Assembly (NCBI GenBank): GCA_023271875.1
Contig: JALPWY010000007.1
Span: 1-55,946 of the forward strand
Source of the DNA: Nitrospinaceae bacterium
Lineage (GTDB): Bacteria; Nitrospinota; Nitrospinia; Nitrospinales; VA-1
Length of the DNA stretch: 55,946 bases
Reading direction: 5' to 3'
The position numbers and the translations under genes were made by a program. Positions 16,135 to 35,904 of this stretch are shown here, in pieces. The number at the start of each line of letters is the position of its first letter. Position 1 is the first letter of the stretch. Below the pieces are notes generated by a model. The model saw nothing but the letters and a program-made list of their open reading frames with translations, was not told where the DNA came from and ran no database searches.

Positions 16135-17238
16135 ATGCCAGATAAATACGCTATAGATGGTCATAAACTAGCCTATCATCCACAAAGAATTGCCCAGTTG
16201 CTTGATGTTGGGGAGGATTGGGAGAAGGCTAAGAGTGTTTACCCCATTTATATGGAAGTGTCTCCCGTTGGGGCCTGTAACCACCGTTGCACTTTTTGCG
16301 GTGTTGATTATATTGGGTACAAGTCGAGGTCGTTGAGCTTGGAGATGCTTAAAGGCCGTCTCCCCGAAATTGGTAGACTTGGAGTCAAGAGCATTATGTA
16401 TGCTGGGGAAGGTGAACCTCTTTTGCATAAACATATTAATGAAATTGTTCAATGCACCTATGATTCAGGGATTTCCATTTCTTTTACCACTAATGGTACG
16501 GCAATGGATGAATCCTTCATTGAAAAATCACTAGGCAAATTGGAATGGATCAAGGTTTCTTTGAACGCTGGTTCGTCTCAAACTTATGCAGAGGTTCATC
16601 AAACCAAGGAGAAGGATTTTCACTTTGTGGTCGACAATTTAAAGAAAGCTGTAAAATTCAAACAGGACAACGATATTTCTTGCACAATTGGGGTCCAAAC
16701 TTTATTGCTTCCTGAGAACACCGATGAAATGTGCGATCTTGCCAAGCTCTGCCGAGATGAAATTGGCGTAGATTACCTGGTGATCAAACCTTATTCTCAA
16801 CATAGCTTCAGTGAAACACGCCAGTATGAAAACATTGACTACAGCGATAGTCTCTCCTTGGGAGAGAAACTGAGTCTCCTTGGCACGAACGATTTCAGTG
16901 TTGTCTTTCGTGGTCATACTATAAAAAAGTATGCTTTAGCAGATGATGAACGTTATAGCAAGTGCAATTCAACGCCCTTTCTTTGGGGATATGTTATGGC
17001 CGATGGTGCTGTTTATGGGTGCAGTGCTTATCTTTTGGATGAACGTTTTGAATATGGCAATCTCAACGAGCTTACTTTCAAAGACATCTGGCAAGGTGAA
17101 AAACGCAGACAAAACTTTCATTATGTTTTAAAAGAGCTAGACATAAAAGAATGCAGAAAGAATTGTCGCATGGACGAGGCGAATCGATATTTGTTTGCTC
17201 TTAAGGAAAATCAAATTCCTCATGTCAACTTCATTTAA
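16135..17238 (+). CDS. Radical SAM enzyme with a C-terminal SPASM-like cysteine cluster
   Basis: About 367 residues from the ATG at 16135 (MPDKYAIDGHKL); ATG 16072 and TTG 16054 are in-frame alternatives, and none has a good ribosome site. The radical SAM motif is C48-x3-C52-x2-C55 in GACNHRCTFCG, followed by GEGEPLL, the SAM-contacting segment. The C-terminal region has spaced cysteines (CNSTPF, YGCSAY, IKECRKNC) as in SPASM domains that hold extra iron-sulfur clusters. SPASM enzymes oxidise or modify peptides, alcohols or sugars. It opens a long co-directional run of sugar-activation and radical SAM genes, so a glycan precursor substrate is likely but not shown. Confidence 0.88.
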   Translation: MPDKYAIDGHKLAYHPQRIAQLLDVGEDWEKAKSVYPIYMEVSPVGACNHRCTFCGVDYIGYKSRSLSLEMLKGRLPEIGRLGVKSIMYAGEGEPLLHKHINEIVQCTYDSGISISFTTNGTAMDESFIEKSLGKLEWIKVSLNAGSSQTYAEVHQTKEKDFHFVVDNLKKAVKFKQDNDISCTIGVQTLLLPENTDEMCDLAKLCRDEIGVDYLVIKPYSQHSFSETRQYENIDYSDSLSLGEKLSLLGTNDFSVVFRGHTIKKYALADDERYSKCNSTPFLWGYVMADGAVYGCSAYLLDERFEYGNLNELTFKDIWQGEKRRQNFHYVLKELDIKECRKNCRMDEANRYLFALKENQIPHVNFI

Positions 17239-17275
17239 CCTTATTCAACCTCGTCAATTTCATTAGGAATACATC

Positions 17276-18277
17276 ATGAGAGCTCTGGTTACCGGAGGAG
17301 CGGGTTTTATAGGGAGCTATTTGTGCCAGCGGCTGCTCGTCAATGGTCTTGAGGTCGTCGGAGTCGATAATTTGGTTTGCGGTCGATTGAAAAATCTTGA
17401 TGAGTTCAAAAATGAACCGAACTTTAATTTTGTTCAGGCAGATATCAGAGATCGAAAGGCTCTTTTGTCTGCTATGAAAGGTGTGGATTGGGTGTTCCAC
17501 CTGGCGGGGCTTGCTGACATTGTACCTTCAATAGAAAACCCCTCTTTGTATTTCGATATAAACGTTAATGGGACCCTCCACGTCTTGGAGTGTGCCCGGG
17601 AAACAGGAGTCGGCCGGTTTCTTTATGCTGCTTCCTCTTCCAGTTATGGCATTCCGGACAGTTACCCCACCGGGGAAACGGCCCCGATAAATCCGCAATA
17701 CCCTTATGCTCTAACGAAGTACCAAGGTGAAGAGCTTGTTCTACATTGGGCGGAATTGTACAAGCTCCCCGCGCTTTCGTTGCGTCTATTTAATGTATAT
17801 GGTCCTCGCTCTAGAACCACTGGAGCATATGGTGCTGTTTTTGGAGTTTTTTTAGCGCAGAAACTAAATGGAAAACCTTTTACCGTAGTTGGGGATGGTG
17901 CTCAAACAAGGGATTTCACCTATGTTACTGATGTGGTAGATGCTTTTATCTCAGCGGCTGAATCTGATCTTTCTGGCGAAGCTTTTAATGTTGGAAGTGG
18001 AAATCATTATAGTGTAAACCAACTGATAGCCCTGCTGGGAGGGGATGTGGTGAACATACCAAGACGGCCCGGCGAACCAGATTGCACTTTTGCGGATGTT
18101 AGTAAAATAAGCCGCATGCTTGGATGGAAGGCAAAAGTTTCTCTGGAAGAAGGGGTCCAGCAAATGCTTGACAGGTTGGAGGATTGGCGTGATGCCCCTG
18201 TTTGGAACCCTGAAACCATTCAACAGGCAACCTCAAAGTGGTTTCAATATCTCGGAGATAAAGTAACGAATGTCTAA
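17276..18277 (+). CDS. NAD-dependent epimerase (UDP-glucose 4-epimerase-like)
   Basis: A 333-residue extended SDR with AGGA shortly before the ATG. The NAD loop is TGGAGFIGS, the catalytic motif is Y-x3-K in YPYALTKYQGEE, and the sugar-binding blocks RLFNVYGPRS and VVGDGAQTRDFTYVTDVV are typical of GalE/WbpP and related enzymes. It lies 37 bases after the radical SAM gene and overlaps the next gene by 8 bases, so it belongs to the operon. It may make a heptose or hexose epimer in the same pathway as the downstream isomerase and kinase; the substrate is not certain. Confidence 0.92.
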   Translation: MRALVTGGAGFIGSYLCQRLLVNGLEVVGVDNLVCGRLKNLDEFKNEPNFNFVQADIRDRKALLSAMKGVDWVFHLAGLADIVPSIENPSLYFDINVNGTLHVLECARETGVGRFLYAASSSSYGIPDSYPTGETAPINPQYPYALTKYQGEELVLHWAELYKLPALSLRLFNVYGPRSRTTGAYGAVFGVFLAQKLNGKPFTVVGDGAQTRDFTYVTDVVDAFISAAESDLSGEAFNVGSGNHYSVNQLIALLGGDVVNIPRRPGEPDCTFADVSKISRMLGWKAKVSLEEGVQQMLDRLEDWRDAPVWNPETIQQATSKWFQYLGDKVTNV

Positions 18278-18851
18278 AAATGTTACCCTTATGGAACAGG
18301 TGGGGCAGTTTCAGGGTCTTGTAGAAAAAGCAGAATTTTTGGATCATGAGGGAAACTCGTTGGATTGTGAAAAGGGAATCCAGAAAAACCTTGGAATGCT
18401 GGAAAGCTTGAGGGACCGAAGAGGAAATTTATTTCTCGTAGGTAATGGTGGAAGTGCTGGGGTCGTTAGTCATATCCTTACCGATTTTATTAATGTCAAT
18501 AAGCTTAATGCTAGGACTCTGCATGAATCATCACTCCTGTCATGCATGAGCAATGACTATGGATATGAAAATTCATTTTCCGAGCCGCTTTCCACCCTGG
18601 CCCGGGAAAGGGATTTGTTGATCGCGGTGAGTAGTTCAGGACGTTCTCCAAACATCCACAATGCCGTTAAGAGTGTTAAAAAAGCCGGAGGAGAGGCGAT
18701 CACTCTTAGCGGATTTAGTGAGGATAATCCCTTGAGATCAATGGGAGATCTGAATGTCTGGCTCGATTCTACGAATTATGGTTTAGTGGAAATTGGTCAC
18801 CTCTTTTATCTTCATTATCTATCCGGGCATCTCAAATTAAAAGGGCCGTAA
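18270..18851 (+). CDS. SIS-domain phosphosugar isomerase (GmhA-like)
   Basis: A 193-residue single SIS domain, the size of GmhA, the sedoheptulose-7-phosphate isomerase. Visible features are NGGSAGVVSHILTDFI (phosphate-binding loop, about residues 56-71), LLSCMSNDYGYENSF, the second phosphate loop VSSSGRSPN, and a C-terminal helix (EIGHLFYLHYLSGHL) carrying a likely active-site His. GmhA turns sedoheptulose 7-phosphate into D-glycero-D-manno-heptose 7-phosphate. Its start overlaps the epimerase by 8 bases and its stop abuts the kinase/nucleotidylyltransferase gene. That order (isomerase, kinase/transferase, phosphatase) is the heptose activation pathway, although the assignment to heptose is by homology only. 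Confidence 0.88.
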   Translation: MSKNVTLMEQVGQFQGLVEKAEFLDHEGNSLDCEKGIQKNLGMLESLRDRRGNLFLVGNGGSAGVVSHILTDFINVNKLNARTLHESSLLSCMSNDYGYENSFSEPLSTLARERDLLIAVSSSGRSPNIHNAVKSVKKAGGEAITLSGFSEDNPLRSMGDLNVWLDSTNYGLVEIGHLFYLHYLSGHLKLKGP

Positions 18852-20384
18852 ATGCAAGCTACTGACAAGAAAATTCTTACTCTTGACGAATTGTCTGCAA
18901 AGTCAAAAGAATGCAGAGACTCCGGGAAAAAAGTAGTTCTGTGTCATGGTACTTTCGATTTGCTTCATGCAGGGCACATCAGGTACTTGAAAAGTGCTCG
19001 TAATGAAGGAGACGTTCTGTTTGTTACTTTAACCGCAGATGAGTTTGTCAACAAGGGCCCCGGTCGACCTGTGTTTTCACAGGATTTGCGAGTTGAAAAC
19101 TTGGGGTATTTGAGTTTTGTGGATTTCGTTGCCGTGAATAATGCCTCCACCGCTGTTAACGTGCTTTCTAAAGTCAAGCCGCATGCTTATGTCAAAGGTC
19201 CTGATTATAAAAATATGGAAGATGACATAACTGGGAATATCCACGCCGAAAAAAAAGCCGTCGAGGCTCATGGTGGAAAAATAGTTTTCACGGATGATGT
19301 TACTTTCAGTTCCACCAGTCTTTTAAATGAGCATTTTGGGGTTTTCCCCACCGAGACCAAGGACTACCTCCATAGTTTTAGACAAAAGTATAGCCATGAA
19401 GACATCATTGGCATGCTTCAAAGCTTGAGAAATTTGAATGTATTGGTGATCGGTGATGCAATCGTGGATGAGTATCATTATGTAGAACCCCTTGGCCAAT
19501 CTAGCAAAGGGGCGAACCTGGCTGTGAAATTCGGCTCGCAAGAACAATTTGCCGGGGGGGTTTTGGCAGTTGCTAATCATATTGCGAGTTTTGTTAAGAA
19601 CGTCACCATTGTAACGGGGCTGGGGAAGCAAAACAGCCATGAAGAATTTATTCGCTCTAAATTGCAAAAGAATGTGAATTCTGAATTTTTCTTTTTCGAG
19701 GATGCCCCTACGATTGTAAAAAGACGTTATGTAGATGGGGATTTGCTAAAGCTTTTTGAGGTATATTTTTATAACGATGAGCCCTCCTCAGAATATATTG
19801 ACCAAGATGTTTGCGCCTGGCTGGAAAAAAACACGGCAGAGTTCGATGTAGTCATTGTTCCTGATTTTGGCAATGGGTTTATATCTACAAGCATGATTAA
19901 AAAAATTTGCGACCACGCTCGTTTTCTGGCTGTAAATACGCAGGTTAATAGTGGAAACCGTGGCTACCACTCGATTAACCGGTATCCACGTGCAGATTTT
20001 GTTTCATTAAATGGTCCCGAGCTTAGGATGGCCACCCACAATCGGCACGATGCCTATGAAAAATTAGCTACGGAATTAGCTGGGGAAATTGGTGTCGACC
20101 ATTTCGCTGTAACACTTGGAAGTAAGGGTGCCATTCTCTTTGACAGAGACCAGAACACTGTCCACAAATCTCCAATACTGTCCACGAAAGTGCTGGACCG
20201 TATTGGTGCCGGGGACGCATTTTTATCTTTAGCCGGATTATGCCTTGGAAGAGGTTTGAAATCAGAGATTGCCCTATTTATAGGAAGTGCTGCCGCCGCA
20301 TTGGACGTGCAGGTAGTTTGTAATCGGAAGCCCATCATTCCTGTCAATTTATACAAATATATTAACACCCTATTAAAGTCGTGA
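18852..20384 (+). CDS. Bifunctional nucleotidylyltransferase / PfkB sugar kinase (HldE-like with reversed domain order)
   Basis: A 510-residue fusion. Residues about 8-165 are a cytidylyltransferase-type domain with HGTFDLLHAGH (HxGH at 39-42). Residues about 185-510 are a PfkB/ribokinase-type kinase with VIGDAIVDEYH near the start, QEQFAGGVLAVA in the sugar site and the DRIGAGDAF signature with GAGDAF at 452-457. E. coli HldE has the kinase first and the transferase second, so this is the opposite order. Together the activities would phosphorylate heptose 7-phosphate at O1 and, after phosphatase action, attach a nucleotide. The gene starts directly after the isomerase stop and ends overlapping the HAD gene by GTGA. 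A run of seven G lies at 19554-19560. Confidence 0.9.
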   Translation: MQATDKKILTLDELSAKSKECRDSGKKVVLCHGTFDLLHAGHIRYLKSARNEGDVLFVTLTADEFVNKGPGRPVFSQDLRVENLGYLSFVDFVAVNNASTAVNVLSKVKPHAYVKGPDYKNMEDDITGNIHAEKKAVEAHGGKIVFTDDVTFSSTSLLNEHFGVFPTETKDYLHSFRQKYSHEDIIGMLQSLRNLNVLVIGDAIVDEYHYVEPLGQSSKGANLAVKFGSQEQFAGGVLAVANHIASFVKNVTIVTGLGKQNSHEEFIRSKLQKNVNSEFFFFEDAPTIVKRRYVDGDLLKLFEVYFYNDEPSSEYIDQDVCAWLEKNTAEFDVVIVPDFGNGFISTSMIKKICDHARFLAVNTQVNSGNRGYHSINRYPRADFVSLNGPELRMATHNRHDAYEKLATELAGEIGVDHFAVTLGSKGAILFDRDQNTVHKSPILSTKVLDRIGAGDAFLSLAGLCLGRGLKSEIALFIGSAAAALDVQVVCNRKPIIPVNLYKYINTLLKS

Positions 20385-21016
20385 AGTATCAGCATATTAT
20401 TTTTGATTTTGATGGGGTGCTCGTTGAATCAAATGAAATACGGTTTAATGGTTTTAGAAAACTCTTTAAGGATTATCCTCAAGACCAGATTGAAAGATTA
20501 GTGAGCTACGCAAAAGCTAATGGAGGAGTTTCGCGATATAAAAAAATCGAATATTTCTTCAATGAAATACGTCAGGAGCCGGTTTCGGATGGGCAGGTTG
20601 ATCATTGGGCGGTTCAATTTTCCGAATTGGTTGAGCAGGATATTGTAGAAGCCAAATCTGTCGAGGGTTCTTTAGAGTTTTTGCGGGAGTATTTCAATCA
20701 TTTTGATTTCGCAATTGTCTCGGGCTCTGATCAAGCAGAACTGAGAAGAGTTTGTAAAAAACGGAAAATAGATCATTTTTTTAAAGCGATATTGGGTTCC
20801 CCCGCTGAAAAAAAAGATAACATAGCCGCTTTATTATCGGAGCTAAATTGGAGTCATGATAGATCCGTGTATGTGGGGGATTCTAATAATGATCGGGATT
20901 CGGCAAGGGCTAATAACCTAGACTTTGTGGGGCGTTGCTCAGGTTTGGTTGATTGGCAAAACTTCAATGTTATGTTTGTCTTGGACTTGTCTTCGTTGTA
21001 TAAGGTTCTACACTAA
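20381..21016 (+). CDS. HAD-superfamily phosphatase (GmhB/phosphoglycolate-phosphatase-like)
   Basis: A 211-residue HAD hydrolase starting with GTG at 20381, overlapping the previous stop by GTGA. The nucleophile motif I is DFDGVLVES, motif II is in IVSGSDQAEL, a conserved Lys lies in the PAEKKDN stretch, and motif IV is VYVGDSNNDRDSA. An alpha-helical cap is inserted after motif I, as in the beta-phosphoglucomutase/phosphoglycolate phosphatase group rather than classical GmhB. In the heptose pathway a phosphatase removes the 7-phosphate before nucleotide transfer; the position and coupling suggest this role, but the substrate is inferred. Confidence 0.88.
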   Translation: MKYQHIIFDFDGVLVESNEIRFNGFRKLFKDYPQDQIERLVSYAKANGGVSRYKKIEYFFNEIRQEPVSDGQVDHWAVQFSELVEQDIVEAKSVEGSLEFLREYFNHFDFAIVSGSDQAELRRVCKKRKIDHFFKAILGSPAEKKDNIAALLSELNWSHDRSVYVGDSNNDRDSARANNLDFVGRCSGLVDWQNFNVMFVLDLSSLYKVLH

Positions 21017-21065
21017 TCTTTGATTGTCCTAACTTAGGAACAACCATTTCTTTCTTCGGTTATTC

Positions 21066-22169
21066 ATGAAAATAAAAGAAATTCGTGTTCACTTACTTCA
21101 GAAAAAACTAACCTCTTCCATGATAATCTCTAGGGGTGGTTTTGATGTCCGACACCACCTTATTGTTGAGGTTGTTACTGATGAGGGAATTACAGGTCTA
21201 GGGGAAGGGGTCGGGAGTGCTCGTATAATCCAGCAAATCTTGCAGGGCTTTATGATTGAGCAAGCTCTGGGACTGGACCCCATGAGCATAGAAGCGGTTC
21301 GGAGCAAACTGATAGACAGTCAAGTCTATATGGAGCAAAAAGGCTCCGTAATTTGTGCCGCCAGTGCCATTGAAATGGCCTGCTGGGATATTAAAGGAAA
21401 AGCCTTGAATGTGCCTGTATTTCAATTGCTGGGAGGGCATTACCTAGATAAGATAGAGGCTTACGCGAGTGATGTTTATTGGGAGGAAGATCCTGAAAAG
21501 ATGGGAGAAAATGCTTCACGCATAAAAAGCTTGGGGTATGGTGCCATAAAGGCTCACTTGGGTTGTAAGTCTCCCCGCGAAGATATCTCAAGGATTCAAG
21601 CCTTGCGAGACGCGATAGGCCCGGATATTGATTTGATGATTGATTTAAACGGGGGATATAATCGACTGCAGGCATTTCAGGCGGCCAAATTATGGGAGCC
21701 CTTCAACCTTTACTGGTTAGAAGAACCGGTAAACCCCAATCAAATAGATTGTTTGGCAGACTTGCGAAGCAGAACCTCTGTGCCCATAGCGGCAGGAGAA
21801 AATGAATTTCGCGTGCATGGCTTCAAACAACTTTTTGATAAAAATGCAGTAGATGTTGCAATGCCCGATATTGGTCGTGTCGGAGGTATTCAGGAAACCC
21901 GGAATATTTGTGCTTTGGCCGAAGCGTATGGAATTCTGGTTTCGCCTCACAATTATTCCTCCGGAGTTCTGCTGGGGGCCACAATCCAATTGATGGCCAG
22001 CATTCCTAATGCGCATCTTTTGGAGATAGACACCTCTGACAATGCCGTATATCAAGAGTTGTTAGTTGAACCCTTACAGATAAAGGATGGGATTGTCAGA
22101 GTTCCTGAATTCCCTGGGCTGGGTGTAGAGCTTAACGAGGAAGTGTTGAAAAAGTATTCCGTCCATTAA
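21066..22169 (+). CDS. Enolase-superfamily enzyme, mandelate racemase-like
   Basis: A 367-residue member of the mandelate racemase/muconate lactonising group. The metal ligands are visible as D193 (LMIDLNGG), E219 or E220 (WLEEPV) and E245 (AAGENEF). The general-base dyad D268-H295 of the mandelate racemase subgroup is present (MPDIGRVGG and SPHNY). On the other face the usual K-x-K is K162-A-H164, so the second lysine is a histidine. The family abstracts the proton alpha to a carboxylate, most often to dehydrate sugar acids. A sugar-acid substrate is plausible in this cluster, which would be unusual for surface-glycan genes. It starts 49 bases after the HAD gene. Confidence 0.88.
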   Translation: MKIKEIRVHLLQKKLTSSMIISRGGFDVRHHLIVEVVTDEGITGLGEGVGSARIIQQILQGFMIEQALGLDPMSIEAVRSKLIDSQVYMEQKGSVICAASAIEMACWDIKGKALNVPVFQLLGGHYLDKIEAYASDVYWEEDPEKMGENASRIKSLGYGAIKAHLGCKSPREDISRIQALRDAIGPDIDLMIDLNGGYNRLQAFQAAKLWEPFNLYWLEEPVNPNQIDCLADLRSRTSVPIAAGENEFRVHGFKQLFDKNAVDVAMPDIGRVGGIQETRNICALAEAYGILVSPHNYSSGVLLGATIQLMASIPNAHLLEIDTSDNAVYQELLVEPLQIKDGIVRVPEFPGLGVELNEEVLKKYSVH

Positions 22170-22196
22170 TTTTTTAACTATTATCAAGGTAAAGAG

Positions 22197-22709
22197 ATGT
22201 CAAAAAAATGTGTAATTATCACCGCCTCTGGTTTTCAGGATGAGGAGGTTGTCTATCCCTATTACCGGCTTATGGAGGAGGGGCATTCAGTAGAAGTCGC
22301 AACAAAAGGTGGGGCTGTGGTTTATGGAAAATATGGGGTTCCGGCTCGGGCTACCATGGCAACGACCGAATTGAAATCCAGTAACTTCGATTGTGTTGTC
22401 TTGCCTGGAGGATTTGAAGCTCCAGACCGGGTAAGATTGCTTTTGGAAGTGCAGGAATTTGTCCGGGAAATGGACCAACAGAAGAAACTAGTGGCAGCGA
22501 TATGCCATGGCCCGTGGATAATGATTTCCGCTGGAATCTGTAAAGGCCGTAAGATGACCGCCTTTTGGAGTATTGAGGCGGATATGCGGAATTCCGGTGC
22601 TGATTATCAGCATAAAGTTCCTGTGGTAATTGATAATAACTTTATTACATCGCCTCATTACAATAATAATGGGGATTTTATGAAAGCTGTGATCGAATAT
22701 CTCAAATAA
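22197..22709 (+). CDS. DJ-1/PfpI-family protein
   Basis: A 170-residue flavodoxin-like protein. The reactive cysteine is C103 in the nucleophile elbow AAICHGPW, followed by H104. A Glu in FQDEEVVYP (residues 13-21) should contact the cysteine, as in DJ-1 and YhbO. The family includes glyoxalase-type hydrolases, chaperones and some amidases; earlier protease labels are doubtful. It lies 27 bases after the enolase-family gene and is probably cotranscribed. In this pathway it could detoxify a reactive aldehyde or process an intermediate, but nothing in the sequence fixes that. Confidence 0.9.
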   Translation: MSKKCVIITASGFQDEEVVYPYYRLMEEGHSVEVATKGGAVVYGKYGVPARATMATTELKSSNFDCVVLPGGFEAPDRVRLLLEVQEFVREMDQQKKLVAAICHGPWIMISAGICKGRKMTAFWSIEADMRNSGADYQHKVPVVIDNNFITSPHYNNNGDFMKAVIEYLK

Positions 22710-22762
22710 CAGCTTGAATCAAAGAGCTTTCTTTTTTATTCTAAGGATGATCAAAAAAAACC

Positions 22763-24640
22763 ATGTCTGTTTCACTTGCAAATAAGGTGTCTGTCTCTAG
22801 CAAGATAGCTAATCAGAGGTTTTTTGAATATTTAAACCGCATCAAGGCAGAGTTTCCATTTGACAATCGAGTTACCCTGATCCATTGCCCCACTTTTAAT
22901 TTTGATTCATTCAATATCGAAGTAGCCAAAAACAGGGCTTATTACGCCTACCCTCCAACCGGACTGCAATGTCTAAAAGCTGTTCTTTTGGATTTGGGTA
23001 TCCAGGTCGACATCCTTGATTTGAATTTTTTATTGCTGGAGCGGATTTGTCAAGGTGAGCCTGTGGATCCCTTGGATTTGCGTTCTATACTTGATGAATA
23101 TTTTGACTCTCATAGGGTCTCCGTAGTAGGCGTTTCAGCTGGAGTTATCGTTTCCAATATTTTTGGTGTTGCTAATCATCCTTTCCCTCAGACCCTGAGT
23201 TATCTCATGGAGAAAAAAGACTGCATGGTTCTTGCCGGAGGGGTTATTGCCAACAACGAATGGAAAAATCTATTGAAAAGTAACCTTACCCATTTAGTCC
23301 TTGGAGAGGAAGCTGAAAATAAGCTGACTTATGTTTTAAAATATCTGATGGGAAAAGAAACCGGCTCACCCATGCAGGGGATTTATTTTAAATGTGATGG
23401 GGAAATTGGGGAAACTTCCGGTGAAAAAGATATCGTTATTTTCCAGAAGGATCTAATTCCTGCTTATGACCAAATAAAAATTGAAAGTTACAACCAAGTG
23501 GGATGTCTCAGCCCCTTTTCTCGAATGGTTGGCCCCGAACAGATATATGCAACAGTTCAGCTTGTTAGGGGATGTCGAGCTCAATGCACTTTTTGTGGAG
23601 TCACCCCATTCATGGGGTCAGTGCGCCAGTATCCGGTGGATAATGTGATTCGAGAAATCGTTTACTTGGTCCGGGAAAGAGGGGTCAAGCATATTGAGTG
23701 GCTTGACGATGACCTCTTGGCGGATCGAGAGGCTGTTATTGAACTATTTCGAAAAATGATCGATCTCGATCTTGGGCTTACTTGGGCCGCCAATAATGGC
23801 CTAATTGCTTCTTTTCTGGATCAGGAGCTCCTGAAGCATATGGTCGATTCTGGGTGTGTTGGTTTTCGTGTCGGCATAGAGTCTGGGAATGACACAATAT
23901 TGAAAAAAATTAAAAAACCTGCTAGCAAGCAATCTTTGAGACAGGCATCGAAGCTGCTTGCTCAGTCTCCTGAGCTTTTCGTCGTTGGATGCTACATCAT
24001 TGGGTTCGAAAATGAAACCGTGGGCCAGATATTCGACACCTTTAAATTTTCTCTTGAAATGAATCTTTCGTGGGCAGGATTTTCGGAATGTCAAGAGGTT
24101 AGAGATGCGAGCGTTGACGAAGAGTTTGAAGCGGATCATCAGGAAGGATCTTATAAGAGGGTAACGGATTTCGTCCCATCTAAGGAAACCGCGGATCGCA
24201 CGATCAATGCCAGAGATGGTGAGCAGGACTCGATTTTTATTCTCCCAAAGGATTCAGTTCCGTCCTCAGAGAATCTGCATGAGATGTGGTACACGTTTAA
24301 CTTGTTGACTAACTATGTTTTTAATAAGAACCTTTTGCCAGGGGGTTCTCCGGAGCGATTTATCAGATGGGTCACAATTCTTCAGCTCAGTTATCCCGAG
24401 AATGCGGTCATGAGATTATTTCATTGCTTGGCTCTTAGGTTGTCCTGCCAAGATGAAAAGGCTGTCGTTCAGTATTCTCGTGCTCGGGAAATATTGCAGC
24501 AATCAGATTACTGGACGCGTCGGTTCAAGCAGTTTTTTCTCGATGAGATCATGGAAAATCCACCCAAGAACAAATTGGAAGCTCAGCAAACCATTAAGCA
24601 GATGAGGGACAGATTTTGGGGTGTGGTGGAAAAATTATAA
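22763..24640 (+). CDS. B12-binding-type radical SAM enzyme, paralogue 1
   Basis: A 625-residue enzyme. Residues about 35-200 are the Rossmann-like N-terminal domain typical of cobalamin-dependent radical SAM proteins (YPPTGLQCLKAVLLDLG near 63-79), without a clear D-x-H-x2-G motif. The cluster motif is C271-x3-C275-x2-C278 in RGCRAQCTFCG. Core blocks include HIEWLDDDLL, GFRVGIESGND and IIGFENETV. A C-terminal helical extension of about 150 residues follows. It is a full-length homologue of the enzyme at 25513, including the extension. The family often performs C-methylation or other difficult carbon chemistry. It may act on the sugar or lipid intermediate of this cluster. Confidence 0.88.
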   Translation: MSVSLANKVSVSSKIANQRFFEYLNRIKAEFPFDNRVTLIHCPTFNFDSFNIEVAKNRAYYAYPPTGLQCLKAVLLDLGIQVDILDLNFLLLERICQGEPVDPLDLRSILDEYFDSHRVSVVGVSAGVIVSNIFGVANHPFPQTLSYLMEKKDCMVLAGGVIANNEWKNLLKSNLTHLVLGEEAENKLTYVLKYLMGKETGSPMQGIYFKCDGEIGETSGEKDIVIFQKDLIPAYDQIKIESYNQVGCLSPFSRMVGPEQIYATVQLVRGCRAQCTFCGVTPFMGSVRQYPVDNVIREIVYLVRERGVKHIEWLDDDLLADREAVIELFRKMIDLDLGLTWAANNGLIASFLDQELLKHMVDSGCVGFRVGIESGNDTILKKIKKPASKQSLRQASKLLAQSPELFVVGCYIIGFENETVGQIFDTFKFSLEMNLSWAGFSECQEVRDASVDEEFEADHQEGSYKRVTDFVPSKETADRTINARDGEQDSIFILPKDSVPSSENLHEMWYTFNLLTNYVFNKNLLPGGSPERFIRWVTILQLSYPENAVMRLFHCLALRLSCQDEKAVVQYSRAREILQQSDYWTRRFKQFFLDEIMENPPKNKLEAQQTIKQMRDRFWGVVEKL

Positions 24641-24674
24641 GCTATCCCAGTGATTTTGGGAAATAAGGACAAGC

Positions 24675-25445: not shown

Positions 25446-25512
25446 ATTGAAAGTTCCCCCGGAGTGCTGTAAAATGATCTGCTCTGTTAATTAGAATATA
25501 CCTAATATACCT

Positions 25513-27447: not shown

Positions 27448-27596
27448 TAGGTGTAAAGGATTGCCATAAAATATCTAAAAATCAGTGAAAATATGAAGCA
27501 AGTGGATATTTCTGTCGGGCTTAGTAAATGGCTATTGACCGAAAACTGGCTTGCCTAGAATTGGTTTTTTAATCTTAATGATACAGGAGTAGCTTA

Positions 27597-29006: not shown

Positions 29007-29298
29007 CTCATTTCAATGAGTAGCTATATGATTAGGTGCGAGTGATTGGTCGGTAGGTAATCTAGTTTTTTAAAGAGATTTTATTTTTAGTCTGTCGATA
29101 AATTGCATTATATTGGTAGACTTGAATGAGTTGTTGGTCACTTTTCATAATGCCGATGGTCTCGTCGACACGACAGATCAATCGAAGCCGAAATTTATAA
29201 TGTTGTTAAGGTAGGCCGAGACTAGCCAGTCAGCTTTGGTTTTTGAATCCCTTGGGATTCACTGTTCCAATGTCTCCTTTGAAAAAAATGAGAAAATT

Positions 29299-30363
29299 AT
29301 GAAAGCTGTTTATTCCAATCTAAAATTTCTCCGGTTCAAAGAGCAATTAGATGCTCTGGAGAACGGTCATATGGCGTCTCCAGTTCATATAAGAATCAAA
29401 CCTATCAATGCCTGCAATCACGATTGCTGGTATTGCGCGTATCATGTGGATGATTTGCAGTTGGGCAAGTTGATGGAAATGAAGGACGTTATCCCCCGAG
29501 ACAAAATGATGGAGATCATCGACGATCTGGCAGATATGGGGGTCAAGGCCGTTACTTTTTCTGGAGGAGGAGAGCCGACCATCTACCCTCATTTGGAAGA
29601 ATCCATTAACAGGCTGGGCGAGAAGGGAATTAAGGTAGCCTCCCTCACCAATGGATCGGGTTTGAAGGGAGCCGTGGCTGAGGCTTTTGCGAGGTACGGC
29701 ACATGGGTTCGGATCTCCATTGATGGATGGGACTCGGAAAGTTACGCCAAATTAAGAAACGTCAAGTTGGGTGAGTTCGATAGGGTGATCCAGAATATGC
29801 GGGATTTCGCCAGCTTAAAGTCAGACTGTGTTTTGGGAATCAGTTATATTGTGGATCAAAAAAACTATAAGCATGTTTTTGACTTTGTTTCCCTCATGAA
29901 AGATGTAGGTGTCAACCATGTGAAAATCATGGGGGTGATCGTAAGCAATGATGGACTGGAAAGTAACCAGTATCACGATGGAATACGCGAAGAGGTTCGG
30001 GAACAGATTGATCGTGCAAAATTGTTGGAAGATGATACCTTGAAGATCGTCGACCACTACCATGAAATGGCCGAAAGATTTGATAAGGAATATACGACTT
30101 GCCCGAGCCAGCAGTTTTTGATTGTGATTGGCGCTGACAGCAAGGTTTACTCTTGCCAGGACAAAGCTTATACGAATGAGGGGCTGCTTGGTTCTATAGA
30201 GAATAAACGGTTTAAAGAGTTTTGGTTTTCAGAAGAAAATTATAATCGGATCAAGAGCATTAACCCCAGTGTTGATTGTATTCACCATTGTGTCGAACAT
30301 CAGAAAAATCTTTTATTACATGAGTATTTGGCGGCCGACGAGAAGCACGTTGAGTTTGTCTAA
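29299..30363 (+). CDS. Radical SAM enzyme with a SPASM-like C-terminus
   Basis: About 354 residues from ATG 29299 (MKAVYSNLKFLRF); a TTG at 29236 would add 21 residues and is less likely. The cluster motif is C39-x3-C43-x2-C46 in NACNHDCWYCAY, followed by FSGGGEPTIYPHL. The C-terminal cysteines (TTCPSQQF, YSCQDK, DCIHHC) fit a SPASM domain with auxiliary iron-sulfur clusters. It is similar in design to the enzyme at 16135 but not a close duplicate. The 292-base gap before it is longer than most in the run, so it may have its own promoter. The substrate is unknown. Confidence 0.87.
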   Translation: MKAVYSNLKFLRFKEQLDALENGHMASPVHIRIKPINACNHDCWYCAYHVDDLQLGKLMEMKDVIPRDKMMEIIDDLADMGVKAVTFSGGGEPTIYPHLEESINRLGEKGIKVASLTNGSGLKGAVAEAFARYGTWVRISIDGWDSESYAKLRNVKLGEFDRVIQNMRDFASLKSDCVLGISYIVDQKNYKHVFDFVSLMKDVGVNHVKIMGVIVSNDGLESNQYHDGIREEVREQIDRAKLLEDDTLKIVDHYHEMAERFDKEYTTCPSQQFLIVIGADSKVYSCQDKAYTNEGLLGSIENKRFKEFWFSEENYNRIKSINPSVDCIHHCVEHQKNLLLHEYLAADEKHVEFV

Positions 30364-30417
30364 TACAAATACCTACTTTTTAAGAGTTATTCCCAAGTCT
30401 CGATTTTAACCATAAAT

Positions 30418-30427
30418 CCCCCCCCCC
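30418..30427. repeat. Run of ten C
   Basis: A homopolymer of ten C in the intergenic region 30364-30498, followed by TTGAAA at 30433-30438. Such tracts can slip during replication, and one next to a promoter may change the expression of the methyltransferase gene at 30499. No direct evidence of variation is available from one sequence. Confidence 0.6.
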
Positions 30428-30498
30428 TCCTCTTGAAAAAAACCAGAATTATATACATTTTCTTTATACTGAAGCAGCTAGGGAAAGGATGAATTATT

Positions 30499-31173
30499 AT
30501 GAGAGAGTTTGATATTGGATATCCCCATTCTCAAACGCCCCGCGTATTGCTTGCGGGGGCAAGGACTATACAGAACAAAATTGCGGCGTGGGAGCTCGAT
30601 CAGGAATATTATGATGGGGCTCGGGGCAATGGATATGGAGGTTTTAGTTACGATGGCCGGTGGGCTAAAATTATACCTAGCGTGATAAAGGAATATGGAC
30701 TCAATGCTCAATCCTCGGTTCTGGATGTTGGTTGTAAAAAAGGTTTTTTTATGCATGATTTAAAGGCAGCTCTTCCTCGAATCAACTTGAAAGGCGTAGA
30801 GAACCATCCCTATCCCATAGGGCAAGCCATGGAATCTGTTAAAGAGGACATGATATTATGCCCCTATGAAAAACTACCTTTTGAAGATAAAAGCTTTGAT
30901 TTTGTGATGGCGTTTGCTGCCATTTATATGCTGAATTTTGGAGATGTTCTCAGCGCTCTCCGTGAAATTCAAAGGGTTGGCAAGGGGAAGAGTTATGTTA
31001 CGCTCGGAGCTTATCAAACCAAAGAGGAAAAAGAATTATTTCTTGAATGGACATTACTTGGAACAACCGTCTTGCATGAAGACGAATGGCTGGAAGTGTT
31101 TAAGGAAACTGGTTACACGGGCGACTATTTTTTTACCTCTGCTAAATCGCTTCATTTAGTGAGAGGTTATTGA
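30499..31173 (+). CDS. Class I SAM-dependent methyltransferase
   Basis: A 224-residue protein with the class I Rossmann fold. The SAM-binding loop is VLDVGCKKGFFMHDL (about residues 76-90), and the motif with KSFDFVMAFAAIYML lies downstream. The N-terminal 60 residues have no known domain. It is about 135 bases after the SPASM radical SAM gene and 58 before the Nudix gene. The methyl acceptor may be the sugar or lipid product of the island. Neither the substrate nor the methylation type (N, O or C) can be read from sequence. Confidence 0.85.
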   Translation: MREFDIGYPHSQTPRVLLAGARTIQNKIAAWELDQEYYDGARGNGYGGFSYDGRWAKIIPSVIKEYGLNAQSSVLDVGCKKGFFMHDLKAALPRINLKGVENHPYPIGQAMESVKEDMILCPYEKLPFEDKSFDFVMAFAAIYMLNFGDVLSALREIQRVGKGKSYVTLGAYQTKEEKELFLEWTLLGTTVLHEDEWLEVFKETGYTGDYFFTSAKSLHLVRGY

Positions 31174-31231
31174 ATTCCTTTCTCACCAGTGGTTTCTTGA
31201 TAGAAGACAAGAGTAAAAAGACTTCCAAATT

Positions 31232-31720
31232 ATGACCAAAAACGCATACAAGAAAGCGGTGATTGTTTTTCTCCATAACAACTTTGATTCATACCTCTTA
31301 CAGTTAAGAGATTTTAAATCGTCTATAATATACCCAGGCCATTGGGGCGCTTTTGGAGGAGAGGTGGAAGAAGGTGAGTCTCCGGAAATTGCTGTTGGTC
31401 GCGAACTAATAGAGGAAATAGGGTATTCGCCAAAATCGTTTAGTTTCTTTCGAGAGGTTTGTATAGATGACCACAATCTAAATCTTCATATATTTTATTG
31501 CAATATGAACGTTTCACTTGCCAAACTCAATTTAATGGAAGGGGTAGAAATGGGCCTGTTTTCTGTTGAACAAATACTATCCAAAAACCTGTATTCCAAA
31601 AAGTTAGGGAAAGTTTTCCCCATAGTGCCCCCTTTATTAGGATTTTTTGGCGAGTTCTTTGAAAATGTTAAAAAAAAATATCAAAGTCCTTTGAGTCTTG
31701 CAAGTAAGAAAGAACTTTAA
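31232..31720 (+). CDS. Nudix hydrolase
   Basis: A 162-residue protein with a complete Nudix box, GGEVEEGESPEIAVGRELIE followed by EIGY (G-x5-E-x7-REL-x-EE-x-G-Y), at about residues 45-68. Nudix enzymes cleave nucleoside diphosphates linked to another group, including NDP-sugars. In this context it could remove or recycle an activated sugar nucleotide, or repair a damaged one. It ends 15 bases before the cupin-ThDP gene, so the two are probably coupled. Confidence 0.92.
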   Translation: MTKNAYKKAVIVFLHNNFDSYLLQLRDFKSSIIYPGHWGAFGGEVEEGESPEIAVGRELIEEIGYSPKSFSFFREVCIDDHNLNLHIFYCNMNVSLAKLNLMEGVEMGLFSVEQILSKNLYSKKLGKVFPIVPPLLGFFGEFFENVKKKYQSPLSLASKKEL

Positions 31721-31735
31721 ATTTGGCTATCCTGA

Positions 31736-34324
31736 ATGATTAAAAGCTTTAAAATTAAAGGGTCCGATGAAAAACTGATCTCTGATAGTAGGACAACTAA
31801 ACTTGAGTCAGAAATACGGGCAAAGCAGGATCCTTTTGACTATTCAAAGGTTATTGTCAAGAAACCCTGGGGCTACGAATATCTGGTCTTTGAAAATGAG
31901 TTTGTCGCGATCTGGATGTTGCACATAGTTCGCAAGCGTAAAACATCGATGCATAGCCACCCAAAAAAGAGAACCTCATTAATTCTACTTGCTGGAAACG
32001 CTACTTGTTCTCACTTGGAGGGTTCGGAAAAATTAAATCCTATGGAGGGAATTGTCATTGAAGAGGGAGTTTTTCATATGACAGAAGCCTCAAACGAACT
32101 GCCGATTGATCCCCAGTCTGAAAACGGAATTTGGGTGATGGAGATTGAGTCACCGCCAAATAAAGCTGATCTTATACGTATGAAAGATGAGTATGGGCGT
32201 TCTGGGAAAGCATACGAAGGCACGGAGAATATGGTCTTTGATCCCTCTAACTGCATCAAGTTTCAAGAACCAGAACCAGGGAAAATCATTCATGAAAGGT
32301 TTAATGATTGCATATTTTCTCTTGCTAGAGCATCTGCTCTTGACTTGACATCCTTATCTCAAGATGCGCTGGTGTCTGTGATAAGGCAAAAAGGTGGGGA
32401 AGTATCGACCAACCCCTACCTCAAAATAGGGGGGCTTGCGACGTTCAAGGATTTTTGTGAAAATACCGAAAATGAAAACTTGGATAACTATAATGTGTTA
32501 ACCATTGAGAAGACATCTGTGACCATGAAAGTTTCCGATTATATTTTTTCAGAGTTGGCTGCATTAGGGATTAAAGATGTGTTTACCGTTTCAGGAGGAG
32601 CCGCAATGCATTTGTTGGATTCCCTAGGGACCAATAAAGACATGAATTATATTAGCACTCATCATGAACAGGCTGCAGCCATGGCTGCAGAAGGGAACGC
32701 CCGTATTACTGGAAAACCAGGAGTTGCATTGGTCACCTCTGGACCTGGTGCAACCAATACTCTGACGGGAGTCTGTGGGGCTTGGATTGATTCCATACCG
32801 GCGATATTTATATCTGGTCAGGTAACATCCAATACCCTTATTGAGGGTACCGGGCTAAGACAATTTGGGGTTCAGGAATCAGACATAGTCAGTATGGTCA
32901 AAAGCGTAACAAAATATGCCGTCACTATTAAAGATCCAAACCAGGTGAAGTACCATTTGCAAAAAGCAATTTATCTCGCAACTTCAGGCAGACCCGGTCC
33001 CGTCTGGTTGGATATCCCTCTGGACATCCAAAGTAAACGGATTACCCCAGATAAATGTTCTTTATTTAAACCTGAAGAACGAAAAATAACTGGAAACGAT
33101 TTATTAAAAAAGCAAGTCAGTAATTGTGTCGAATTGCTGAAAAAATCCGAGCGGCCTGTTCTGATAAGTGGTTATGGAATCCGTCTAGCAAAAGGTGAGA
33201 AGGAGTTTTTGCAGCTGGTTCAAAAACTGGGGATCCCAGTCATTTCTTCCTGGACTACCAGCGACCTGATTTCCAGCTTCCATGAACTTTATATTGGGCG
33301 AAGTGGAAATTTTGGTGATCGGGCCGGAAATTTCACGGTACAAAATTCTGACTTGCTGTTGAGCATCGGATCTAGATTGTCCGTGCCACAGGTGGGTTAT
33401 AATTTTTCTCTATTTGCGAGAGCAGCAAAGAAAATAATTGTAGATATTGATCCTGCCGAATTAAAAAAACCTTCGCTAGATCCTGATCTTCCCATTAAAG
33501 CCGATGCCAAAGAGTTTATGCTTGAATTGCTGTCTCAGTTAAAAGATTTAAAGCCTTTTGAAGTTAGTAACTGGCTTCAAAGGTGTCAGGGATGGAAGCT
33601 GAATTACCCTGTTGTTCTTCCAGAATATAAAGAGTGTAAGGATGTAGTGAACTCATTTTATTTTATTCAGGTCTTATCCGAGAAGCTGGACGAAAAAGCA
33701 GTGATTATTACAGATATGGGAACCAGCTTTACTTGTACTATGCAGACGTTTAAAACAAAACTAGGACAAAGACTTTCTACATCTAGCGGACATGCATCAA
33801 TGGGTTTTGGTCTTCCAGGGGCTATTGGTGCCTGTGTAGGTAACAACCGAAAAGACACAATTTGCATCAGTGGTGATGGTGGATTGCAAATGAATATCCA
33901 GGAGCTGCAAACCATTGTACATTACAACCTGCCCATCAAACTATTTGTCTTAAACAACAATGGTTATTTGACAATTAAAGCCACCCAACAGAATCATTTT
34001 GGCAGGTTTGTCGGCGCTGAGGAGAGTTCTGGGGTGACTTGTCCTGATATAATTAAAATTGCTACGGCCTATGGGCTCCCAAGTATCCGAATCTCTAATA
34101 CGGAAGAATTGAATTTAAAAATCGATTCCGTCTTAGAAGCTCTGGGACCTATGGTTTGTGAAATTATCATGGGGGAAAATCAGCCTCTAATTCCAAGGGT
34201 TTCCTCACTTAAAAAGCCAGATGGAACCATAATTTCGAAACCGATTGAAGACCTCTATCCCTTCTTGAGTCGAGAAGAGTTTCTGGAGAACATGATTGTT
34301 GACCCAACAGAAATCTTAAAATAA
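31736..34324 (+). CDS. Fusion of an N-terminal cupin domain with an acetolactate-synthase-like ThDP enzyme
   Basis: An 862-residue protein, about 300 longer than an ordinary acetolactate synthase. Residues 38-245 form a cupin-type sugar-binding region with KKPWGYEYL (42-50), HSHP (73-76) and H114. Residues 265-862 are a complete ThDP enzyme: the catalytic Glu E311 in STHHEQAAAMAAEGNA, the GRPGPVWLDIPLD block, and the cofactor motif from GDGG at 713 to NNNGY at 740-744. ThDP enzymes of this type join two-carbon or larger keto units; YerE of Yersinia adds an acetyl branch to a keto sugar. I infer a branched-chain sugar synthase with an attached sugar-recognition domain. No frameshift separates the parts. 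Confidence 0.9.
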   Translation: MIKSFKIKGSDEKLISDSRTTKLESEIRAKQDPFDYSKVIVKKPWGYEYLVFENEFVAIWMLHIVRKRKTSMHSHPKKRTSLILLAGNATCSHLEGSEKLNPMEGIVIEEGVFHMTEASNELPIDPQSENGIWVMEIESPPNKADLIRMKDEYGRSGKAYEGTENMVFDPSNCIKFQEPEPGKIIHERFNDCIFSLARASALDLTSLSQDALVSVIRQKGGEVSTNPYLKIGGLATFKDFCENTENENLDNYNVLTIEKTSVTMKVSDYIFSELAALGIKDVFTVSGGAAMHLLDSLGTNKDMNYISTHHEQAAAMAAEGNARITGKPGVALVTSGPGATNTLTGVCGAWIDSIPAIFISGQVTSNTLIEGTGLRQFGVQESDIVSMVKSVTKYAVTIKDPNQVKYHLQKAIYLATSGRPGPVWLDIPLDIQSKRITPDKCSLFKPEERKITGNDLLKKQVSNCVELLKKSERPVLISGYGIRLAKGEKEFLQLVQKLGIPVISSWTTSDLISSFHELYIGRSGNFGDRAGNFTVQNSDLLLSIGSRLSVPQVGYNFSLFARAAKKIIVDIDPAELKKPSLDPDLPIKADAKEFMLELLSQLKDLKPFEVSNWLQRCQGWKLNYPVVLPEYKECKDVVNSFYFIQVLSEKLDEKAVIITDMGTSFTCTMQTFKTKLGQRLSTSSGHASMGFGLPGAIGACVGNNRKDTICISGDGGLQMNIQELQTIVHYNLPIKLFVLNNNGYLTIKATQQNHFGRFVGAEESSGVTCPDIIKIATAYGLPSIRISNTEELNLKIDSVLEALGPMVCEIIMGENQPLIPRVSSLKKPDGTIISKPIEDLYPFLSREEFLENMIVDPTEILK

Positions 34325-34357
34325 AGAGAAGAAGTTTGAACCAGTTTGGGAGGGCCA

Positions 34358-35203
34358 ATGAAGGCAAAAAAAAAAGACACCATTAGTCACGATAAATATA
34401 AATGGACATCCACTGACTCTCAATTTATTGAGTCCTTTGTGGAATTCGGTTTTGTTATAGTTAAGAGCGTGTTCCCCTCTGACTTTATCGAGAGGATGTA
34501 TGAATTTGTTTCTTCTCGGTATTGTGAATATAAAGAAGAGTTTATTAAGGCGAGTCCCAACTACCAAGTCCCATATATAGGGATAACCAAAAAGCTTATT
34601 AGGGAGCTTGAAGGCAGTTCTTTGTACTCTGAATTGACGCATACGCCAGCATTGCTGGAAGCTTTGGAAAGAATTCTCGGTCCTGATCTGTCAAAAATTT
34701 GTGCGACCGGATTTTTTCCGGTAGACCCTGATGACAATTCATCACCCATTTTCAAATCGTTGCATCAGGAAGTGTGGACGGGTGTCGGCCCAGACGATGT
34801 GGTTTCCTGGACCCCCCTGCATAACACCCGCCCAGAAGATACTCTTTTGGTTGTCCCAGGTTCCCATCTTTTTGGGATGCTTCCCAATAGAAATCGCAAA
34901 CTATTACCTGTTGAAGGTTTTGAAATACCTGAAGCCATTCCATTACAAATACAGAAAGGGGATATTGTTTTTTTTCACTCCCTATTGTTACATGGCACCA
35001 GTGGGAGAGGTGAGCATATTAGATATGCAGTCCAGATCAATTATAGAAATACTTTTGCTCCTCTGACAATGCAGCAAAAGGGATATGGATTTGAGAATTT
35101 GAAGCAGGGGCCAATGACACGAATTAGGCAGACTTTAGGGAACGATTATTTAACTCCCCTAAGAACCTATGGGGGTAAAGCAACGCACTATGAAGAATAT
35201 TAA
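34358..35203 (+). CDS. Phytanoyl-CoA dioxygenase (PhyH)-family Fe(II)/2-oxoglutarate enzyme
   Basis: 281 residues from ATG 34358, which follows a GGGAGGG ribosome site at 34348-34354. The probable iron ligands are H136 and E138 in SLHQEVW (H-x-E instead of the common H-x-D) and H212 in LLHGTSGRG, with the 2-oxoglutarate-binding arginine near R222. VVPGSHLFGML is a family hallmark. Members hydroxylate aliphatic chains, sugars or small acids. It lies 33 bases after the ThDP enzyme gene and probably acts on the same product. Ten A in a row occur at codons 3-6, a possible slippage site. Confidence 0.9.
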   Translation: MKAKKKDTISHDKYKWTSTDSQFIESFVEFGFVIVKSVFPSDFIERMYEFVSSRYCEYKEEFIKASPNYQVPYIGITKKLIRELEGSSLYSELTHTPALLEALERILGPDLSKICATGFFPVDPDDNSSPIFKSLHQEVWTGVGPDDVVSWTPLHNTRPEDTLLVVPGSHLFGMLPNRNRKLLPVEGFEIPEAIPLQIQKGDIVFFHSLLLHGTSGRGEHIRYAVQINYRNTFAPLTMQQKGYGFENLKQGPMTRIRQTLGNDYLTPLRTYGGKATHYEEY

Positions 35204-35250
35204 TGAAATTTCAATTGATTCAAATTTTCCAAGCTTAAGGGGACATAATA

Positions 35251-35904
35251 ATGAGCGATGAAAATACCTTGAGATTGATGAAAGCTTCTAAGAGACGGTA
35301 TTTAGGTCCTCATACCTCATCTGCATTTTCTTTGGATCCAAAGCATTTAGTATTTACCCTTTCAAGGTATAAGTTTGTTGCAAAAATGTTAAGCGGAAGA
35401 GAGTCCGCCTTGGAAGTAGGATGTGGAGATGGTTTTGGTGCGGCAATTGTTGCTCAGGAAGTGCAACGGCTTGTGGGCATTGATAATGAGCCGTATGTTA
35501 TTGAAAACAGTGAGAATGTTGGGTTATCAGAAAAAATAGTTGTTCATGATATTCTGTCTTCTCCTTACCCGGAAAAATTTGAGGCTGTTTACTCTCTTGA
35601 CGTTATCGAACATATCCCCCTTGAGGAGGAGCATCTTTTTTTTAGTAATATTGTGAGCTCCACTAAGGAGAATGGGGTTTTAATTATTGGGACCCCAAAC
35701 ATGTCTGCTAGCTCTTATGCTTCAGAAGTTAGTCGAGTTGGTCATATCAACTTAAAATCTTTTAGCTCATTGAAAGAATCCCTTAGTCGATACTATCGCA
35801 ATGTATTTATGTTTGGAATGAACGACGAGGTGTTGCATACTGGGTTTGGATCTATGTGTCATTATCTGATGGCACTCGCTGTGCAACCTATCAACTGTGA
35901 TTAG
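35251..35904 (+). CDS. Class I SAM-dependent methyltransferase
   Basis: A 217-residue class I methyltransferase. The SAM loop is ALEVGCGDGFGAAIV (about residues 51-65) and motif VYSLDVIEHIPLEEE follows near residue 112. The GTPNMSASSYASE block is frequent in sugar O-methyltransferases of glycan clusters. It is the last gene of the rightward run, 47 bases after the PhyH gene. The decayed transposase begins at its stop codon, which suggests that the island's end was rearranged there. Confidence 0.88.
   Translation: MSDENTLRLMKASKRRYLGPHTSSAFSLDPKHLVFTLSRYKFVAKMLSGRESALEVGCGDGFGAAIVAQEVQRLVGIDNEPYVIENSENVGLSEKIVVHDILSSPYPEKFEAVYSLDVIEHIPLEEEHLFFSNIVSSTKENGVLIIGTPNMSASSYASEVSRVGHINLKSFSSLKESLSRYYRNVFMFGMNDEVLHTGFGSMCHYLMALAVQPINCD

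Follow-up and report, generated by a model that had tools for sequence, protein, structure and literature searches.

Results

A radical SAM-rich island in a Nitrospinaceae genome

A 20-kb island of 17 genes (g1 to g17, positions 16135-35904) was found in the window, the whole 55,946-nt stretch of contig JALPWY010000007.1 of an uncultured marine Nitrospinaceae bacterium. It probably encodes a modular pathway, spread by horizontal transfer, whose product is a nucleotide-activated and heptose-like surface sugar, C-branched and modified by radical S-adenosylmethionine (SAM) enzymes. The gene content, the conservation across phyla, the paralogy and the placement of g15 with YerE-like enzymes were observed directly. 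From these we infer the reactions, their order and the product, and likewise the C-methylation, the acetyl branch and the surface location. The genes are as follows.

g1, 16135..17238, + strand: radical SAM enzyme of SPASM type with four C-terminal Cys (Pfam PF04055 and PF13186)
g2, 17276..18277, + strand: extended short-chain dehydrogenase/reductase (SDR) of the nucleoside diphosphate (NDP)-sugar epimerase/dehydratase type (Pfam GDP_Man_Dehyd/Epimerase)
g3, 18270..18851, + strand: SIS/GmhA-like isomerase (TIGR00441 68.9 bits, under the cut-off of 209)
g4, 18852..20384, + strand: nucleotidylyltransferase-PfkB kinase fusion (CTP_transf-PfkB)
g5, 20381..21016, + strand: HAD phosphatase (PF13419)
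g6, 21066..22169, + strand: enolase-superfamily protein, sugar-acid dehydratase-like
g7, 22197..22709, + strand: DJ-1/PfpI protein (TIGR01382 146 bits, over cut-off)
g8, 22763..24640, + strand: radical SAM enzyme with a weak B12-binding domain, paralog of g10 (PF04055 and alignment)
g9, 24675..25445, + strand: classical SDR (PF13561)
g10, 25513..27447, + strand: B12-dependent radical SAM enzyme of the RGCRAxCTF motif family (PF04055 and PF02310)
g11, 27597..29006, + strand: HemN-like radical SAM enzyme of a glycan-locus clade (TIGR00538 382 bits, over the cut-off of 325)
g12, 29236..30363, + strand: radical SAM enzyme with four C-terminal Cys (PF04055)
g13, 30499..31173, + strand: class I SAM methyltransferase (PF08241)
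g14, 31232..31720, + strand: Nudix hydrolase with full Nudix box (PF00293)
g15, 31736..34324, + strand: metal cupin (residues ~1-255) fused to a YerE/JanthE-like thiamine diphosphate (ThDP) carboligase (~262-862)
g16, 34346..35203, + strand: PhyH-type 2-oxoglutarate oxygenase (PF05721)
g17, 35251..35904, + strand: class I SAM methyltransferase (PF08241)

Domains were assigned by Pfam and NCBIfam profile searches of the window proteins, and genes by open reading frame (ORF) calls on the window. All 17 genes lie on the + strand. Thirteen of the 16 intergenic gaps are overlaps or at most 67 bp, and the remaining three are 149, 229 and 135 bp. The start of g1 was placed at 16135 because its homologs align from Met28 of the longer ORF that begins at 16054; the initial ~20 residues of the g12 ORF are not conserved. 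Promoter and terminator scans gave no signal above shuffled expectation.

An initial annotation, made from the letters alone, had described this co-directional run with mostly short gaps, and the layout was as described. Its calls of GmhA-like, kinase/nucleotidylyltransferase, HAD, enolase, DJ-1, PhyH and two methyltransferase genes agree with Pfam and NCBIfam. It had counted a single SDR, missing the epimerase-type SDR g2, and had missed the Nudix gene g14 also.

Conservation of the island across phyla

When 84,980 species genomes were searched for the g8/g10 family, 79 loci were recovered. Among them are L083, L104 and L082, from cultured carriers such as Paramagnetospirillum and Jiella, which were picked up by the g10 family only. 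In locus L067, labelled Rhodospirillaceae, 13 genes (g1, g3-g10 and g12-g15) were found in the order of the window, with 42-82% identity. The full contig of L073, labelled Nitrosomonadaceae (L207/L208, G081:C6), carries g3-g15 with insertions, at 41-93% identity, and a TIGR04372 glycosyltransferase stands on the opposite strand at the same right boundary as in the window (L073/L207, 65% identity). L088 (Phycisphaerae) has g4, g3, g1, g5, g15, g12, g9, g8, g10 and g11, and partial sets were present in L094 (Rhodospirillaceae), L089 (SAR324), L105 and L141 (Omnitrophota), L086 and L081. Identities were 52% (L067) and 87% (L208) for g3, 57% (L067) and 80% (L073) for g5, 82-93% for g7 and 70-81% for g13 in L067, L073 and L089, and 65-68% for g9 and 69-70% for g12 in L067 and L073; g17 has a 62% match in L092, beside a PhyH gene. 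Since a large part of the gene set, partly collinear, occurs in unrelated phyla, the island looks like an exchangeable cassette. Mis-binning is possible for single contigs of metagenome-assembled genomes (MAGs); the cross-phylum spread rests on L067 as well as on L073.

Most island genes are 68-93% identical to their counterparts in L073, and g8, g10 and g11 only 41-57%. The genes therefore do not all share one history, and the sequences suggest that the radical tailoring enzymes were swapped and the backbone kept. L073 holds about eight radical SAM genes in all on one 27-kb contig. Its extra B12-type radical SAM proteins (531, 581, 677 and 686 amino acids) have no counterpart in the window island.

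Within the phylum, 77 Nitrospinota genomes were compared. G001, of the same genus, keeps a g1-g4 block at 59-70% identity beside the same family 2 glycosyltransferase (GT2) gene (81%, over the part present in L043); there a split transketolase and other genes stand in place of g5-g17. G068 has g1, g2 and g4, followed by an E1-type pair, a g8-like enzyme, a g13-like methyltransferase and a Nudix gene. For g1 the identity is 66% in G001, 70% in G068 and 67% in L067, and for g2 it is 70-72% in G001 and G068. The g1-g4 block is also found in G081:C11. Among the other Nitrospinota genomes none has a strong match to g6 or an over-cut-off TIGR00538 match to g11, and a single close match (44%) was seen for g10. 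These patterns point to a variable glycan locus with a semi-conserved core.

The initial annotation had named conservation of the set in unrelated genomes as support, and scattering of the genes in relatives as refutation. Conservation was found, in collinear runs and in partial sets; some genes do scatter, yet among glycan loci.

Modules within the island

DJ-1 and cupin genes were found together in 12 of the 13 cupin loci (Fisher 3.7e-10), a P value that is only indicative, given that these loci are related to one another and come from a single-anchor search. The enolase-family gene always occurred with DJ-1 (5/5 loci). The cupin is free-standing in L118, L100, L120, L086 and L106, and fused behind an SDR in L119 and L133. 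By these gene distributions, DJ-1, cupin and enolase appear to travel as a unit of their own. At the DJ-1/cupin locus L120, in a Thermodesulfobacteriota MAG, a 2270-residue ORF (14170-20982) with a radical SAM/SPASM-like part was noted.

Such units could mean that several independent glycan-modification cassettes, making different sugars, lie side by side in a variable region. DJ-1/cupin/enolase alone in L118 and L100, the core with a transketolase in G001, and g10 with the HemN-like gene but no core in several loci all fit this alternative, the strongest that we considered. The collinearity of 13 genes in L067 and of g3-g15, with insertions, in L073 argues against it. So does the fusion of the cupin to the ThDP enzyme, which was found in five genomes from several phyla (the window, L067, L073, L088 and L105) and forms one clade (support 100/99). 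We consider it unlikely, and prefer a single modular pathway. The initial annotation had proposed one pathway for an unusual branched sugar; the branching has gained support from the ThDP domain, and the fixed 17-gene pathway gives way to interchangeable modules, G001 keeping only g1-g4.

g15 as a cupin-fused, predicted YerE-like carboligase

The cupin-ThDP fusion was already recognised in the initial annotation. Pfam detects the ThDP domain; the cupin part had no Pfam match at 1e-3, and was identified by an HxH...H motif invariant in a 14-sequence alignment and by the match of its AlphaFold model (pLDDT 82) to cupins. The N-terminal part is thus a metal-type cupin, for which the fold search returned many cupins at similar scores and no specific function.

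For the ThDP domain (600 residues) the best solved relative was 8rph (473 bits), the next being acetolactate synthase II (288). The enzyme in 8rph is JanthE, which is YerE-like and joins alpha-keto acids to ketones (PMC12188165, PMC12247030). In a tree of 40 rows, a split supported at 99/99 puts g15 on the same side as JanthE and apart from the acetohydroxyacid synthases (AHAS) of Nitrospinota. JanthE positions V121, P293 and Y297 are kept in g15, and two are changed (Y268F and K567R). Plain acetolactate synthase was rejected on the two bit scores, on the tree split and on the AHAS model TIGR00118 (411 bits, cut-off 538). A ThDP search in relatives returned mostly ordinary AHAS at ~34%, and is uninformative by itself.

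Three ThDP classes have been tied to sugar branching: YerE-like decarboxylases, alpha-keto-acid dehydrogenases 2 and split transketolases, the last as a proposal only (PMC12247030). A YerE-like, split transketolase or split E1-type gene was present in 22 of the 29 other g4-type loci (8 with transketolase only, 7 with YerE-like only, 5 with E1 only and 2 with two types). The YerE/JanthE-like ThDP domain, and the use of other branching-linked ThDP types by loci of the same kind, greatly strengthen the idea of a branched sugar. This is the best evidence for a predicted sugar branch, and it is genetic in nature, not biochemical.

Similar chemistry could also serve a secreted, heptose-derived small molecule, comparable to the branched-sugar antibiotics. 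Radical SAM, ThDP branching and PhyH chemistry resemble those of antibiotic sugar pathways, and antibiotic clusters are known to contain two of the ThDP classes (PMC12247030). However, no nonribosomal peptide synthetase, polyketide synthase or aglycone genes were found among the scanned window proteins, and the flanks hold glycosyltransferases, a PglD-like acyltransferase, DegT aminotransferases and an ABC transporter, including the following.

36173..37417, - strand: TIGR04372 glycosyltransferase at the right boundary (168.7 bits, cut-off 45)
12317..13423, - strand: GT2 glycosyltransferase, left of the core (PF00535)
10549..12297, - strand: ABC exporter/flippase-type transporter (PF00005 and PF00664)

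As TIGR04372 glycosyltransferase, DegT and ABC genes recur in related loci as well, a natural product seems improbable, and a surface glycan is the better reading of the island.

Radical SAM enzymes

Each of the five radical SAM proteins (5/5) has the CxxxCxxC motif, so that the number given in the initial annotation stands. The genome (1.87 Mb, 61% complete) contains 43 radical SAM matches, and the Poisson P for at least five in 19.8 kb is ~1e-4 per window of that size. The cluster is therefore unusual, but density alone is not decisive, and conservation is the stronger evidence for the island.

The five had been sorted into two B12 types, two SPASM types and one HemN type, which held in part. 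The N-terminal B12-binding domain of g10 is clear, and that of g8 is a weak match (1.6e-4). Against curated class B families both scored at most 114 bits, the family cut-offs being ~250-775. B12 radical SAM enzymes are not methyltransferases in every case (PMC9692996). For the SPASM type, g1 matches PF13186 and g12 has no Pfam SPASM match. Since each has four C-terminal Cys, they suggest a single auxiliary cluster rather than a full SPASM domain. Their nearest solved relatives are BlsE and DesII, which are sugar-acting radical SAM enzymes.

As for the HemN type, g11 passes the equivalog test of TIGR00538, yet belongs to a separate HemN-like clade. All 19 island-type proteins form this clade (100/100), apart from E. 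coli HemN and from the genomic HemNs. Its sole further member, in the genome of L067 itself, lies beside a g13-like methyltransferase and a TIGR04372 glycosyltransferase. E. coli HemN positions F310, Q311 and I329, which we take to have a role in binding the second SAM, are not conserved in the clade (A, M and M in g11); Q311 varies in some genomic HemNs too. The HemN-like gene adjoins a g10-type gene on the same strand 12 times in 80 loci.

An ordinary heme role of g11, as the gene of an oxygen-independent coproporphyrinogen oxidase placed inside the island by chance, would agree with its TIGR00538 score, with its [4Fe-4S] Cys and with several radical SAM-core positions that are kept. The separate clade, the unconserved positions and the absence of an over-cut-off match from the other Nitrospinota genomes make this very improbable, and the genomes of L072, L089 and L094 have a separate, higher-scoring HemN. 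A heme role was rejected on this basis; by sequence, g11 is predicted not to be a heme housekeeping enzyme, and in this analysis its clade occurred in glycan loci only. Methylene transfer by HemN-like enzymes has been described, both with a partner methyltransferase and without one (PMC6050322), so that methylene chemistry is a reasonable guess for g11 by analogy. Many members of the glycan clade in L066-L144 score above the TIGR00538 cut-off, and automatic annotation therefore labels them coproporphyrinogen oxidase.

Predicted activation genes g3-g5 and the sugar-acid dehydratase-like gene g6

Like g3 with the GmhA model, g4 fails the equivalog test of HldE (NF008454, 176 bits, cut-off 521). 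Its domain order, nucleotidylyltransferase first and kinase second, is the reverse of HldE. Against TIGR02198 g4 scored 115 bits; the canonical HldE kinase (390 bits) is encoded elsewhere in the same genome (G000:C26), and canonical HldE over cut-off was present in 65 of the 77 Nitrospinota genomes. It follows that the island has a dedicated activation set, in which g4, to judge by these scores, is a second, divergent paralog of HldE type. That the island is an ordinary inner-core heptose locus of lipopolysaccharide plus extra genes is hardly credible, as its SIS, kinase/nucleotidylyltransferase, HAD and SDR genes parallel GmhA, HldE, GmhB and HldD but are all far under the equivalog cut-offs; a housekeeping heptose role was rejected on these scores and the separate canonical HldE.

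g6 aligns with galactonate dehydratase, with the metal ligands and the His-Asp pair in place, and its active site is predicted to be intact.

Two arrangements around g4-type genes were also seen. In several genomes, L067 included, a 325-residue protein with a weak Rossmann-type match (L048:13663-14640 and relatives) and a free-standing nucleotidylyltransferase precede g4-type fusions. The 2.0-Mb genome G081 has three separate g4-type loci, at C1:110606-112132, C6:25121-26650 and C11:176209-177726 (78, 81 and 58% identity), and the companion genes differ from one locus to the next.

Other genes of the window

Left of the island, positions 3786-15445 hold a second surface-sugar block with a C-methyltransferase, two DegT aminotransferases, two SDRs, a B12 radical SAM enzyme (6395-7831), and the PglD-like acyltransferase, GT2 and ABC transporter. 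The left end (1-2087) encodes FliL and a CDP-alcohol-phosphatidyltransferase-like protein, judged by eye. At 38571-44709, molybdate-type ABC genes are followed by a cytochrome c/ethylbenzene-dehydrogenase-like protein, an FGE-sulfatase-like protein and a molybdopterin oxidoreductase, which looks like a respiratory module. At 48329-52128 a BNR/PepSY protein adjoins an FTR1 iron permease fused to cytochrome c.

Discussion

In the pathway that we propose, a ketose phosphate would be isomerised by g3, phosphorylated by the g4 kinase and probably dephosphorylated by g5. As in the route to ADP-heptose, the N-terminal half of g4 would then nucleotidylate it, giving an NDP-heptose-like sugar. The SDRs g2 and g9 and the radical SAM enzymes g1 and g12 may give rise to keto, deoxy or epimerised forms. 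The YerE-like ThDP domain of g15 could join a carbon branch derived from an alpha-keto acid to the keto sugar, yielding a tertiary alcohol. The B12 radical SAM enzymes g8 and g10 and the HemN-like g11 would modify carbons, methyl or methylene transfer being the likeliest class, and final tailoring would be due to PhyH and the methyltransferases. The cupin, DJ-1 and enolase-family sub-module would work on the same sugar or on the branch donor, and the flanking glycosyltransferases and ABC transporter would assemble the glycan.

Several points weigh against this pathway. Of the YerE-like enzymes YerE, ErwE and JanthE, the ThDP tree includes only JanthE. Branching-linked ThDP genes are common in loci without g4 too (33/62), so that the link is with glycan loci in general, not with g4. 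The histories of the genes differ, DJ-1 being 93% identical between the window and L073, g10 49% and the HemN-like gene 41%, and the contigs of L067 and L073 yielded no g16 or g17. Almost all comparison loci are MAGs, and most were found through g8/g10, so that co-occurrence counts are neither unbiased nor independent. Finally, the link of the DJ-1/cupin/enolase sub-module to sugar nucleotides is putative.

Branched and C-modified sugars are known chiefly from antibiotics and a small number of O-antigens. If our reading is true, uncultured marine and groundwater bacteria, Nitrospinota included, have a transferable multi-enzyme branched-sugar system, with up to eight radical SAM enzymes at one locus (L073). 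More tentatively, the product may be an undescribed class of surface sugar, NDP-heptose-derived and C-branched in the YerE manner, in which B12 and HemN-like radical SAM enzymes jointly modify carbon, possibly by methylene or cyclopropane transfer; the HemN-like clade would then be a new glycan-dedicated family passed between phyla with the cassette. Concrete targets are g15, as a cupin-fused YerE-like carboligase, g10, as an orphan B12 radical SAM family, and the glycan-specific HemN-like family, for which we warn that TIGR00538 annotates a probably non-heme clade as HemN.

Each enzyme class, and the kind of locus (a branched-sugar surface glycan), is already known. In the open papers searched we found neither the combination of genes nor the cross-phylum cassette, and no mention of the cupin-ThDP fusion or of the glycan-linked HemN-like clade. 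Nor did these papers describe any cluster with this set, and the initial annotation knew of none, although overlap is possible with an in silico survey of YerE-like clusters (Krug et al. 2024, cited in PMC12247030).

Compared with the sporadic carbohydrate cluster (TIGR04324), the PhyH protein g16 matches weakly and fails (30.7 bits, cut-off 150). TIGR04372 glycosyltransferase loci resemble the island in the over-cut-off glycosyltransferase at its boundary. From both the island differs by its far larger enzyme set. The HemN-like class C methylases and cyclopropanases (C10P/C10Q, NosN, Jaw5) are, as is predicted for g11, HemN-like proteins outside heme synthesis, with a methyltransferase gene at the same locus; g11 differs in its glycan setting and in having a B12 radical SAM enzyme as usual neighbour. 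Class B (B12-dependent) radical SAM methylases share with g8 and g10 the radical SAM and N-terminal B12-binding domains (weakly in g8), whereas the scores of g8 and g10 are far under the curated family cut-offs. With the ADP-heptose pathway (GmhA, HldE, GmhB, HldD) the island has in common the SIS isomerase, the PfkB kinase with nucleotidylyltransferase, the HAD protein and the SDR; it departs from it by the reversed fusion order, the low family scores and the many added enzymes. The known YerE-like carboligases are YerE (yersiniose A), ErwE (erwiniose) and JanthE. Among solved proteins the ThDP domain of g15 is closest to JanthE, with which it shares the three retained positions, and g15 has NDP-sugar-type genes alongside. 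It differs by GDG, which is canonical, instead of the CDG of JanthE, by F for Y268 and R for K567, and by the fused N-terminal metal cupin. The setting of the YerE-like enzymes is a CDP-3,6-dideoxy-4-keto-hexose, whereas the genes around g15 point to heptose-like activation.

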